From: Polytrichum commune
Lineage: Eukaryota > Streptophyta > Polytrichopsida > Polytrichales > Polytrichaceae
Assembly: GCA_950295325.1 (NCBI GenBank)
Contig: OX485804.1
Location: forward strand, 48,298,001-48,362,000
Length of the DNA stretch: 64,000 bases
Reading direction: 5' to 3'
Below are positions 41,943 through 46,823 of this stretch, piece after piece. The notes beneath the pieces were generated by a model. It worked only from the letters and a program-made list of their open reading frames with translations, was not told where the DNA came from and did not search any database. Each line of letters opens with the position of its first letter. Within the stretch, counting starts at the first letter, position 1. A program made the translations under genes and the position numbers.

Positions 41943-42277
41943 CTCGGGGGGGGTAGTCATTGGTTGGAGTAGCAATATACGTGCGAACAAATGATAGGGT
42001 ATTCTAAAAACATGGGAGCAAAAATTTATAATTGGGCTTAAGAGTAATATAGGGTATCAAAAATGGCACTGGACATCTTTAAAGTACTATAGGGTATGGA
42101 ATAATAGGTAATTTGAAATTATAAGTAATGCAAGCCATTTTTCTATTAACCCAAAGTAGAAATTTACATAATGATAGCATGTGAAAAAAAAAATTGAAAG
42201 TAATACCCCCCTATAAAATAGTGGTTGTTCGCACCTATATCCTTAACTTTTTAACACACTGCCCCCCCCCCCCCGAG
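41943..42277. mobile_element. Non-autonomous TIR element, CTCGGGG family, 335 bp
   Basis: The left end is CTCGGGGGGGGTAG, and the inverse of the right end is CTCGGGG extended by a G run. It is flanked by a perfect 8-bp duplication GAGTTTTT (41935-41942 and 42278-42285). Inner TIR blocks 'acgtgcgaacaa' and 'ggtgcgaacaa' recur at both ends and resemble 'cacgtgcgttca' of the coding member at 43435. A 13-base C run (42262-42274) sits in the right TIR. Non-coding. Confidence 0.9.
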
Positions 42278-42285
42278 GAGTTTTT

Positions 42286-43344
42286 GGGGAAAAAAACATT
42301 AAGGTCCATAAGGTAGGAAAACCAATGAATGATCAACACTAGTGCACTAGACTAGGAGAAAAATGAGTATTGTGTGGACTCAAAATGACTCATTGTAAAA
42401 TGTTGGCATGAAAAGGATGCAGTGACCGGCCAAATAGGTCTTGTTTCACATCACTTGGGATCACTTTTGGATTTCATTAAGTTAACCATTTTGTGTGTTT
42501 TCATATGCAGAGAAGGATATTTTGATGCTCAAATTGAGGTGACTTTATTAAACAAGTAGTAGGATTTGACCTACTTACATCTTTGAGACAATGTAACTAA
42601 TTATTTACAAGGAATAAAATTATAAAACAACTTGCAGTCCTCATCATTTCCTCTCCATCTGTGAAAAACATTACACAAATTTCAAGCCACTCTTTCTTGC
42701 CAAATTAACTTAATTTCACGGTTTTCCATATTTCTACTTACATCATGAAGTTGATGATATGAGTAGGAAGATTTTAGTGTTTTTATTTATTATGCACAAC
42801 ATTTCTACTATTGTTTGAGTGGGTTTAAAAGTCATTCTAAGAATCTGTTTATGATGTTCATTATTCAGCTTCAAGATTATATTTGTTTCCAATATCGGTA
42901 GGTGGGTCATGATATTGTGGCTTGACAATTGCCTTGAAGTCACCAATTTTAGTGTTGAATATGGTACTCTGATAGAGAATATTCCTATATTGCTACATGT
43001 ATAATTTTCTAGTTATTATGAGCCAACCTAAGCATGGCCCATGGCCCATGTCTAAGTATTGTTACGTGAAGAGAGAGCCAACAACTTTCTTTTGGAGAAA
43101 ACTATTATTGAGATTGATAATTTGGTTTTTATTTCTTTTCATTTCATTTTACATACCTAAATTTGGGTCCATGTCCCCAATTCAAGGGTCAATCCAACTA
43201 AAAACATTTGTCTTTGGGCTATACAATATTTTTTACCATCTCCATCCTCCTCGGGGGGGGGGGGGGGGGGAGGGTGAAAGACTCATAGTGTCTACACAAA
43301 CTCATTTATTAGGAAGGTAGAAATGTAGCAAGCTATTTTATAAT
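42286..43344. other. Non-genic stretch with 18-base G run
   Basis: It contains a G run at 43253-43270 preceded by CCTC. The plus frame 42997-43320 runs through the G run (glycine tract) and shows no domain. No second transposon end pairs with this CCTCGGGG. Confidence 0.4.
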
Positions 43345-43678
43345 TTTGTTCTTTTTGGAGGCAAAAGGCTAAAGAACCAATGCCAATGCATTAACAACCA
43401 AGGAAGACACACCCACTTAGAGGGGAGGCAAAACCTCGGGGAGTGCACCTTTCATTAAAACCTAGAATCACGTGCGTTCACTGCATACTCTAAAAACCCC
43501 CTATATACAAGTTATTTTTTGTGAAATGAAGTAATACACATACAATTGCAACAATAAATATACAAGTGACAATATGTATACACAAAAAAAACATCCATTC
43601 ATATATAGTCATTAACATAAGTATACAAATATACTTTGGAACAATAATCAACCCCTATAATATGTATAACAAAATATC

Positions 43679-44680
43679 CTAGCTTTCATCAACAAAGTCG
43701 TTGAAAACTTTTTCATCTCCCGGATGTAACTCATAAACATTTGATTCACCAATATATGTCATTGTAGCCAATGCAATTATTGTCTCTAAGTCTACCATCA
43801 AATGATCAGTAAGATCATATGTCCACTTGTTGTTAGCCCCTTTTTGATACCAACATAAACCAATCTCCACGTTTGATGGACGGTCCATCAAGTCAATTGG
43901 ATCCCTATACTCCACCCAACGATTACAAAACTTCCTCCGCATCCTATAAACTCTCCCAACAAACCAAACCTTAACTCGAGTAGATTTTTTTGGCCTACCT
44001 CGTTTTTTTACAGTTTTAGCTTCAGGTGTGTTCAAAAAACACACACCATAGTCACAACCAAGCTTTAACAAAGTGTCATGGTTTCCAGCACTCATGAGTT
44101 TAGGCTTCATATATAATATGCCAGCTCTAATTCGAGTCAACCGATCTTTAGACAAAGAAGGATTGCCATTCAATTGACTAACAAGTGTACTTTTAAAAAT
44201 TCTAGACTCCCCTACCATTACATAAGCCACAGCTGACTTTGCATTTGATAGAGAGGGAATTTCAACACCTTCATGTTCATCAACAAGAACATCCAAAGTA
44301 TGTCGAAGTTGACTCTCCAACTCAACATCTTCATTTATGTCATCTTCAGCCAATGACTGCAACCCTTCATCCTCTATAAAAGCATCCTTGCATGAATTTG
44401 AATTGCCTCCTTCAACACCACAATCTTCCTTTTCACCACCTTGTGTAATAGGATCATCAATCAATATGTGATCATAATCACATTCATCTTCCTCCATACT
44501 TCCAAACAAATGAGCTTCAATTTTTTTTTCATGTATCCATGGTTCTACCCACCAATTGCCATCTCTCACAACATCGGGTTTCATACCCAATTCACCACAC
44601 ATTTCTTGAGCCTCTTGAAATCCCAACTTCAAAGCTAAGACAATGAGATCATCATTTTCCACACATGAATAATCTCTCAA
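43679..44680 (-). CDS. Transposon protein, downstream part, unrecognised
   Basis: This is a 333-residue frame. It is open upstream of 44680, where TTG rather than ATG occurs, so it is probably the continuation of the frame at 44692-45396 after a 1-2 base frameshift or a splice. The first 60 residues hold an EAQEMCGELGMKP segment, then an acidic linker rich in Glu/Asp. A basic KKRGRPKKS motif lies near residue 230 and resembles an AT-hook or nuclear localisation signal. The C-terminal third is Trp/Tyr-rich (VKVWFVGRVYRMRRKFC, LCWYQKGANNKWTYDL). No DDE triad was located with confidence. It lies inside the TIR element, so a role in transposition is inferred. The frame is intact, which suggests the copy is not very old. 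Confidence 0.6.
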   Translation of the reverse strand: MRDYSCVENDDLIVLALKLGFQEAQEMCGELGMKPDVVRDGNWWVEPWIHEKKIEAHLFGSMEEDECDYDHILIDDPITQGGEKEDCGVEGGNSNSCKDAFIEDEGLQSLAEDDINEDVELESQLRHTLDVLVDEHEGVEIPSLSNAKSAVAYVMVGESRIFKSTLVSQLNGNPSLSKDRLTRIRAGILYMKPKLMSAGNHDTLLKLGCDYGVCFLNTPEAKTVKKRGRPKKSTRVKVWFVGRVYRMRRKFCNRWVEYRDPIDLMDRPSNVEIGLCWYQKGANNKWTYDLTDHLMVDLETIIALATMTYIGESNVYELHPGDEKVFNDFVDES

Positions 44681-44691
44681 ATCTGCAGCTT

Positions 44692-45396
44692 CTAATGTAG
44701 AATCTTCTCCAACTCATTCCATATGTGAGTTTGTTCCTTGTGAGCCCTCACAAAACGTGGACCAGTAGGATCGGCCTCAAATTCCGCAATGCGTGCTAAT
44801 GCTCCTGCACTTTCCACAATATCAATCCCATCATAGGTCCTCTCGTTTGAAATCATACCACCAATTTTTCCGAAAAAAATTTCACAAACATCTGATCCAA
44901 GCAAGCCAAATGGAACTTCTAAGTGGTTGTACTTATCCTTGAACAACTTGATAAGCAACACAATATAATGACACGAAATCTGCATATCTAAATAAGCTTG
45001 ATGACTAATAAAATTTGTCTTCAAAGAATAAGTGTGGGTCCCTAAATGCAACCATAGTTTCCACAAACGAAGAGAGAATGATACCTTTGATGCAGCTTTA
45101 CATTTATCAAACAAAGACAAGTGAATAGAAAGAAAGATATCTATATAGGAAGATATAACCTTTAAGTAGTATTGTGGACCCTTTGTCCTCTCCTTTCGAT
45201 GTTGTGCACATTCTCGAAGTTCCAATAAACAATTTTGCATTTTTTTAGATGCAAGGCGTTGAACGGCAGTCCAATTTTGTCGATCCTCTCTCTTAATGTC
45301 TCCTTCCTGCAACCCATGTTGATCAACAGAAAAAGAAGCATATACTCTTAATGTATCCTTCTCTGCAAATGTAATTAACCCTCCAACCCCAAGCAT
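44692..45396 (-). CDS. Transposase-like protein, upstream part, unrecognised
   Basis: This is a 234-residue frame upstream of 44680-43679 on the minus strand, separated by about 12 nt and in a different frame. It reads QNWTAVQRLASKKMQNCLL, then SYIDIFLSIHLSLFDK, LRLWKLWLHLGTHTY and LGSDVCEIFFGKIGGM near residues 175-190. The Ser-Asp-x-Cys-Glu-x-Phe-Phe block recalls the catalytic Glu region in the C-terminal half of P-like and related cut-and-paste transposases. That is a resemblance, not an identification. The annotated start falls in a triplicated segment (45361-45742), so the true first exon may lie further upstream. It ends in TAG at 44692. Confidence 0.6.
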   Translation of the reverse strand: MLGVGGLITFAEKDTLRVYASFSVDQHGLQEGDIKREDRQNWTAVQRLASKKMQNCLLELRECAQHRKERTKGPQYYLKVISSYIDIFLSIHLSLFDKCKAASKVSFSLRLWKLWLHLGTHTYSLKTNFISHQAYLDMQISCHYIVLLIKLFKDKYNHLEVPFGLLGSDVCEIFFGKIGGMISNERTYDGIDIVESAGALARIAEFEADPTGPRFVRAHKEQTHIWNELEKILH

Positions 45397-45742
45397 CCGC
45401 GTTACCTAAGCAGCTTACCGCATCGTCTTCCTTTGAGATTCTCTCTCCATCCACCTTGTTTCTAAATGATGAGGCCTGAAATCTCCTAACCCACAGTCTC
45501 TGCAAATGCGGTTAACCCACAAACCCTAAGCATCTGAGCCACCCAAGGAGGTTCATAGACCATCTTCCTTTCAGATAATCTCTTCAAATCCACCATGCAT
45601 TTGAACCATGAGCCCTAGCAAGCATTTCCTAACCCCCAAATCTCTTCAAACGTCGTAAATTCACAGACCCCAAGAATTTGAGCTACTCGCAATGAGCTCA
45701 TTCGCCCTTTTCTCCCAATGAGATATTCCTAACTTACATCTT
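45361..45742 (-). repeat. Three tandem copies of the 5' exon/intron region
   Basis: Units at about 45361-45497, 45498-45639 and 45640-45742 (about 140 bp) share 'ctctgcaaatg', 'ttaaccc.c.aaccc.aagcat', 'catc.tcttcctt' and 'atttcctaaccc'. On the minus strand each reads M/I-L-x-V-x-x-x-x-x-F-(A/E)-E. The first also shows a splice-like G-GTAAGC donor and a TTTGCAG acceptor. So the amino-terminal coding/intron segment of the transposon gene has been triplicated. Confidence 0.7.
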
Positions 45743-46416
45743 CCATCCAGCTGCTCTCTTTTTCAAGTTTCCAGTCACCGCCACCGAGCAACCTCCACCC
45801 TCGCTCTTTGGGTAGCTAGTATCAATCCCCGAAGCTTTTCTGCTCGGAGAACCAAAGATTGCGTCCTCTAGCTCCGAATTTCAGAACGAGGCCATGACAA
45901 TGTCAGGACTTTCGGTGATTCCCACGGCAGCAGTAACCGCAAGGACGCTGGAAGCGCTGGAAGCAACAGGTGAAAGAAGGAAAAGTGAAGCAATTGTCGG
46001 CAAAAGAAGCAGGCTATGCGAGAAGAGAAAACAAAAACCTAGGGATGGGAGGGGAAAAGGGTCCTTGTTACTTTGAGCTGAACAAATCATTTCAAAACCC
46101 TAATACTGCCTCTTTCCCCGATATTACCTTGACACCTTGTACATGGTTCATACTACCCTATAAGGTTGCTAACGAAAATCGTTAATCCTAGTTAATCCTA
46201 ATTTCATTCAATATGAAAACTTATGATATGTAGTATAGTAACAGTACCGTACAAGTACAATTATTGTATATTTTTTAAAGGCCTTCCATATATGTACGTA
46301 ACTATAAATTATAACATGTATACCATATGTATACGTAATATGGCAAGGTCCAAATCAATACCCCTCCTATGCACTCACGTATACTCGTACATGTTTAGTA
46401 CAGTGCACCCCCCGAG
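45743..46416 (-). promoter_or_regulatory. 5' non-coding region of the transposon
   Basis: This lies between the tandem units and the right TIR. It includes overlapping frames at 45881-46090 (minus) and 45894-46185 (plus) of no known type, and AT-rich sequence toward the TIR. It probably holds the promoter of the minus-strand gene, but no specific box can be assigned. Confidence 0.3.
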
Positions 46417-46823
46417 GGCAGAACCCCTCAAACGCATCACACTGTCACGTAAAAGGTAGCAAAAGAGCCAAGTGTTAAGAACCCCTACCAGGGACAATCC
46501 ACCAACCCACTCCACCAAGGACTACCCCCACCCCATCTGCCAAGGACAACTCCGGAACCACCAAGAAGACAAAGTAACATGTAGCCAACAAACATAGTCA
46601 TGTCCAACCCCATGCAAGTTGCCACCCACAACTAGGAAGAAAAGCAAGCTTAACTAACCATGAGCACCAAGATGGTTACTTGGCCATGATCTTCCAGTTC
46701 CATGAAACTATGAGTCCTTTGCGGTGGCACAAGATGCCCTACACCCCCCAAGATGAGTCAAAATCACCAACAATGGAGGCCTTTACCGGGGGGGCATCTC
46801 TCAATGCACTTGAAAAACTTTTC

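Follow-up and report, generated by a model that had tools for sequence, protein, structure and literature searches.

Structure of the window copy

The element at 43435-46416 lies in a stretch of 64,000 nucleotides of Polytrichum commune DNA, which we refer to as the window. Its left terminal inverted repeat (TIR), CTCGGGGAGTGCAC, occupies 43435-43448, where most other copies carry CTCGGGGGGTGCAC, and the right TIR at 46403-46416 reads CTCGGGGGGTGCAC in reverse complement. The element is bordered by GGCAAAAC at 43427-43434 and GGCAGAAC at 46417-46424, a target site duplication with one mismatch (7 of 8 bases match). Between the ends, two long adjacent frames are found on the minus strand: a C-terminal transposase frame of 344 aa (43679-44713), with an AT-hook-like KKRGRPKK motif for which the Pfam AT_hook match is below the cut-off, and an adjoining frame of 237 aa (44692-45405). 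The ends, the imperfect flanking duplication and the two frames had all been pointed out in the initial annotation and are read directly from the sequence. At 43250-43270, about 165 bp to the left of the element, CTC precedes a stretch of 18 consecutive G; it resembles the end motif of the family and has no partner with a matching flank.

The end part of an RNase H-like catalytic domain is encoded at 44701-45348 (minus strand; family alignment A4) and contains the last part of a helical insertion and the SDVCEIFF block. This is the SDxCExFF block that had drawn attention in the initial annotation, and it is indeed a transposase hallmark that holds the third catalytic acid. In the numbering of the catalytic core modelled below, the window copy enters at residue 382, with D183 and D302 preceding that point and E544 inside. 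The window copy therefore lacks the first two catalytic acids and is unable to encode a working enzyme; because the protein part with these two acids is missing, it cannot move by itself.

The parent of this copy, 9.15 kb long and with the same ends, is located on contig C4 of the assembly (locus L003) and is flanked on both sides by the perfect duplication GTTTATTT. In the flank before its 5' end (L056) GTTTATTT repeats every ~45 bp, which puts the parent at the border of a tandem repeat. Alignment with the parent resolves the window copy into 1911 bp from the parent's 3' part (43435-45345, minus strand, 97.6% identity), a 677-bp filler that is absent from the parent (45346-46022) and 394 bp from the parent's 5' end (46023-46416, minus strand, 97.2% identity). 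This composition identifies 43435-46416 as an internally deleted, non-autonomous (Ds-like) derivative of the 9.15-kb element. The reading of 43435-46416 as an intact coding element must accordingly be abandoned: the copy is internally deleted, and the opening 19-20 residues of the 237-aa frame derive from the filler, since the DNA match to the parent stops at 45345. The stronger matches of relatives to this frame begin at residue 20, and several weaker ones that reach residues 2-7 are taken as chance extension.

Both window frames run as one frame in the C4 copy (736 aa), and the break between them is for this reason most simply explained by a later frameshift in the window copy; the gene of the parent is also broken, further upstream. 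As to the filler, at least ~610 bp of its 677 bp are present at six other genomic places, and part of it is a diverged (~73%) repeat in some copies. It may originate from the 5' region of another subfamily or from captured host DNA.

Copies, miniature derivatives and intact relatives in the genome

In the 408-Mb assembly containing the window (G000), 40 scored candidates yielded 76 matches to the element. They include a second full-length copy (96%) as well as numerous copies of ~1.4 kb, in which element positions 1-830 and 2442-2982 are retained. We checked 25 other copies together with their flanks, namely five long copies and 20 short ones out of the 34 for which both halves were listed; the short copies were taken by right-half score, skipping the top one, the match of which stops 4 bases before the end. 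Both ends were present in 22 of the 25, and 21 of these 22 are flanked by a perfect 8-bp duplication and one by a duplication matching at 7 of 8 bases, a count from which a separately fetched fragment of one copy (L006) was left out. When duplication lengths of 5-10 bp were tried, 8 fitted alone. For L002, L003 and L004 the fetched stretch contained the left end only, and the far end of L003 was later found, with a perfect duplication. With the window copy and the parent added, all 24 duplications are distinct, and A is mildly favoured at position 6 (15/24). A TIR transposon with 8-bp duplications, as initially proposed for 43435-46416, is thereby borne out, including the constancy of the ends and of the duplication across genomic copies that the initial annotation had suggested examining.

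Comparison of the 20 short copies among themselves bears on the age of these insertions. Eight of the 190 pairs are 100% identical over ~1.4 kb (gap columns ignored), and the least similar pair still shares 95.3% identity. Given the identical pairs, the family has apparently moved recently and would count as recently active.

The window contains a further, smaller element. At 41943-42277 (plus strand), 1.2 kb from the element described above, we find a 335-bp MITE with the TIR CTCGGGGGGGG and the perfect 8-bp duplication GAGTTTTT. Compared with the two ends of an ORF-intact relative on contig C5 (L063, L007), its halves show 91.6% and 86.6% identity, and on this resemblance the MITE is assigned to a sister P-type subfamily. 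A first look across the genome yielded 1,482 candidates, which is a rough count; all 40 candidates that underwent scoring have an identity of 97% or more. Both strict ends were found in 16 of 20 fetched copies, all 16 with perfect and distinct duplications; the other four, without both strict end motifs, were excluded from the duplication count. Another copy of the 335-bp type lies in L010 at 488-819. Near a distant relative of 1,189 aa, a scan with its minimum set below 300 bp also found a 286-bp MITE (L014:5381-5666) with the ends CTCGGGGGGTTCACT and the perfect duplication CCAACAAG.

Genome searches with the two window frames returned 148 and 123 matches (E <= 0.001), with identities ranging from 22% to 100%. 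Seven translated loci (L007, L008, L009, L010, L011, L015 and L041) contain stop-to-stop frames of 1,493-1,543 aa; L008 and L007 have different N-termini, and the frame in L010 reaches the edge of the fetched stretch. Within the stretches initially fetched for 21 relative loci, no CYCGGGG pairs with matching flanks were detected (300-bp minimum), and three of the 21 gained paired ends once more flank was fetched. In L007/L063, L009/L061 and L045/L062, the 8-mer next to the 3' end is present a single time in the 5' flank, where in all three cases it immediately precedes CTCGGGG or CCCGGGG. These perfect 8-bp duplications are GTTTAAGG, AAAGAAAC and TGCCAACT, respectively; the frames of L007 and L009 are intact, while that of L045 is broken. 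A scan of seven loci for any TIR with an 8-bp duplication gave one pair, in L008, the ends of which are part of a 350-bp inverted repeat and lack the family end motif.

The transposase and its predicted fold

At the level of sequence, the protein has no close counterpart among the collections that we searched. With E up to 10, Pfam gave nothing credible either for six relatives' proteins or for the two window frames, and NCBIfam (three proteins, E up to 1) and PHROGs (two proteins, E up to 1) gave no match, in agreement with the initial annotation, which had been unable to connect the transposase to a named family. Searched with the family profile, PDB sequences yielded nothing credible, and the Drosophila P element entry 6p5a was not recovered. 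A direct hhalign comparison with the P transposase was not significant (E 0.43), with E 0.025 to an out-of-register stretch, and in a profile Smith-Waterman test against P, 26 of 300 shuffles reached or exceeded the observed score (27 of 200 at a lower gap cost). The Pfam P-transposase insertion model (PF21788) gave 0 matches in the genome and none in any control either, and the P RNase H C-terminal model gave 8 short, weak matches (E up to 10), one of them over the cut-off and covering positions 1-18 of 35. Among the Pfam matches of six proteins (E up to 10; L003 being an N-terminally cut fragment) there is no THAP domain. The hAT dimerisation domain, PF05699, is likewise absent from the Pfam results for six relatives' proteins and the two window frames; in the same genome this model has 150 scored matches, and hAT proteins are thus abundant. 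The Pfam transposase models for Zisupton/KDZ and Merlin had no match in six proteins at E up to 10, in a search that included no positive control member. When the pattern of alignment A2 was used, neither the 31 pattern matches in viral contigs nor the 66 in prokaryote genome contigs could be confirmed.

The predicted structure points to a specific relationship. We modelled a 661-residue core of the relative L007, using an alignment of 28 rows (27 other sequences, 26 from the same genome and one from the window). The model has a mean pLDDT of 74.9 and a pTM of 0.74, with 114 of its 661 residues at pLDDT below 50, some of them near the first catalytic acid. In Foldseek, the first two ranks are taken by the Drosophila P element entries 6p5a and 6pe2 (E 1.5e-8 and 1.8e-8), the next being RAG1 at 0.019. 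VIA gave Z scores of 25.2 and 25.0 for P, compared to 11.2 for Transib, ~10 for RAG1 and 8.9 for Hermes; its alignment with P extends over 327 residues at an rmsd of 3.4 and places model residues 146-575 on P residues 200-565, passing through the insertion domain. A viral fold library gave no match at E <= 0.001. It should be noted that the P-type core is seen in the predicted model of a relative; most of the corresponding part is missing from the window copy.

The putative catalytic acids are highly conserved. Counting rows of the 28-row alignment that have a letter at the position, D183 is kept in 19 of 19, D302 in 20 of 21 and E544 in 22 of 22, and all three occupy fitting strand and helix positions in the model. 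D230, D303 and E531 are given as the catalytic residues of the P transposase, along with its GTP contacts, in the account of PMC7776569, and the aligned range of P (200-565) includes all of them. By motif and range, we infer that LAEDETKV pairs with LAFDEMKV of P (D230), SDGDSRR with SDLGTGN (D303), YIDIFLS with WFDIFNS (D444) and GSDSCEIFFS with NQDIVEHFFG (D528 and E531). D541, which resembles D528 of P, is found in 20 of 22 rows, and D451, which resembles D444, in 18 of 22, these two likewise being paired by motif. Lysine 400 of P seems, from the motif register, to be replaced in the family. The likeness in fold is no demonstration that the family uses GTP.

The N-terminal region could be modelled less well (pLDDT 55.9, pTM 0.31). 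Residues 1-84 retrieved mostly ubiquitin-like folds at Z ~7, where matches also arise by chance, and in the transposase of L007:4697-6268 (minus strand) these residues are tentatively predicted to form a ubiquitin-like (beta-grasp) domain. Zinc-finger-like motifs are present in the N-terminal part of the family protein.

Assignment and relation to known transposons

From the fold and the duplication length, we consider it very probable that the family is a deep P-type branch of plant cut-and-paste DNA transposons, of which the window copy is a non-autonomous derivative. We speak of a P-type family and not of an ordinary P element because sequence comparison with P gave no significant similarity and a THAP domain was not detected. 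More tentatively, and with somewhat less than even confidence, the family may represent an undescribed plant branch that is still moving, in which zinc fingers and a ubiquitin-like N-terminal domain have taken the place of THAP, the GTP site has been remodelled, and a MITE burst has produced more than a thousand near-identical copies.

Other readings have to be weighed against a P-type origin. Short inverted repeats could by chance surround a degraded repeat that is no transposon at all, and the mismatch in the window copy's own duplication might be cited in favour of this; the 22 other copies with identical ends at 22 different sites, 21 of them with perfect duplications, have already refuted it. 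A divergent hAT element is a more serious candidate, as hAT transposons likewise make 8-bp duplications and have an RNase H domain with a helical insertion, the duplications are present here, Hermes is among the fold matches and hAT proteins are abundant in this genome. However, the dimerisation domain is absent from the six relatives' proteins and the two window frames, even though the same model finds many genomic hATs, the fold match to P stands at Z 25.2 against 8.9 for Hermes, and the CYCGGGG ends are presumably unlike those of hAT elements, so that we regard this placement as highly unlikely. A Transib/RAG type was also considered and rejected on the core fold match (Z 11.2 compared to 25.2 for P).

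It is somewhat less improbable, though still unlikely in our judgement, that the family forms a superfamily of its own outside P, having converged on a similar core or being linked to the P/RAG/Transib/hAT group through nothing more than a deep ancestor. The lack of significant sequence similarity to P, the absence of any credible Pfam, NCBIfam or PHROG family and the different N-terminus would all be in line with such a position, but the P match is more than twice as high as that of the next family, its alignment passes through the insertion domain, and the order of the motifs and the 8-bp stagger are as in P. We therefore retain the P-type assignment. The initial annotation had presented the element as an unplaced and potentially novel system, and had reasoned that a strong match to a known family would remove the novelty. 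Such a match to P now exists in the fold and permits placement, and none that is significant exists in the sequence; what remains is a deep and unusual branch of the P type, not a new kind of transposon.

On the P-type reading, full-length copies would produce a transposase of ~1,500 aa from a single uninterrupted frame. Its core would be a split RNase H-like DDE domain, the helical insertion of which can be superposed on the one that binds GTP in P, and N-terminal zinc fingers together with the C-terminal AT-hook-like segment might bind subterminal DNA and the CYCGGGG ends. The three acids D183, D302 and E544 would excise the element and join its 3' ends to the target, and an 8-bp stagger at this joining would account for the length of the target duplications. 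Both ends are retained in the window copy, in the 1.4-kb copies and in the 335-bp MITEs, all of which could thus be moved in trans by such a helper. DNA binding, activity and any use of GTP by the family are all inferred.

P elements in plants are not new as such, because a survey table lists P-element in all groups studied, land plants included (PMC4438587). Elsewhere the P superfamily has been called mostly restricted to Drosophila (PMC5791352), and a table in a review of land-plant transposons has six TIR superfamilies, with P absent from that table (PMC9033089). The small part of the literature that we searched, Repbase lying outside it, holds no description of the present family. What is new, as far as these searches go, is the family itself, along with its unusual protein and the scale that it has reached in one genome; it is a family that curated protein models have missed rather than the first hint of P in plants. 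According to PMC7776569, no transposase other than that of the P element is known to employ GTP as a cofactor, and a plant P-type branch that has intact genes and near-identical passengers, perhaps numbering over a thousand, would test how general this use is. A different N-terminal end on a P-type core would furthermore allow one to ask how the recognition of DNA ends was swapped, and the family opens the question of whether P-type elements shape plant genomes.

Among known systems, the Drosophila P element (6p5a, 6pe2) is most similar in its predicted core fold, including the insertion domain, and in the presence of three catalytic acids in the same order. Internally deleted P derivatives are moved in trans in Drosophila, a further likeness to what is proposed for the plant family. 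The two differ in that sequence similarity is not significant, that the plant protein shows no THAP domain but zinc-finger-like motifs and, by weak prediction, a ubiquitin-like fold at its N-terminus, and that it is about twice as long. According to PMC7776569, P elements also make 8-bp duplications and have 31-bp repeats, whereas the plant family, besides its different host, has CYCGGGG ends of ~14 bp. The zebrafish P-like element and THAP9 are described in the same source with short TIRs (13 bp), 8-bp duplications and internally deleted copies, all as in the plant family, a likeness drawn from that description; unlike the plant family, THAP9 bears a THAP domain. The hAT elements Hermes and Ac share the 8-bp duplications and an RNase H core with a helical insertion, but their dimerisation domain was not found in the plant family and the fold match is weaker (Z 8.9). 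Transib and RAG1 belong to the same structural class (Z 11.2 and ~10), with a far weaker match than that of P, and their duplications are 5 bp long.
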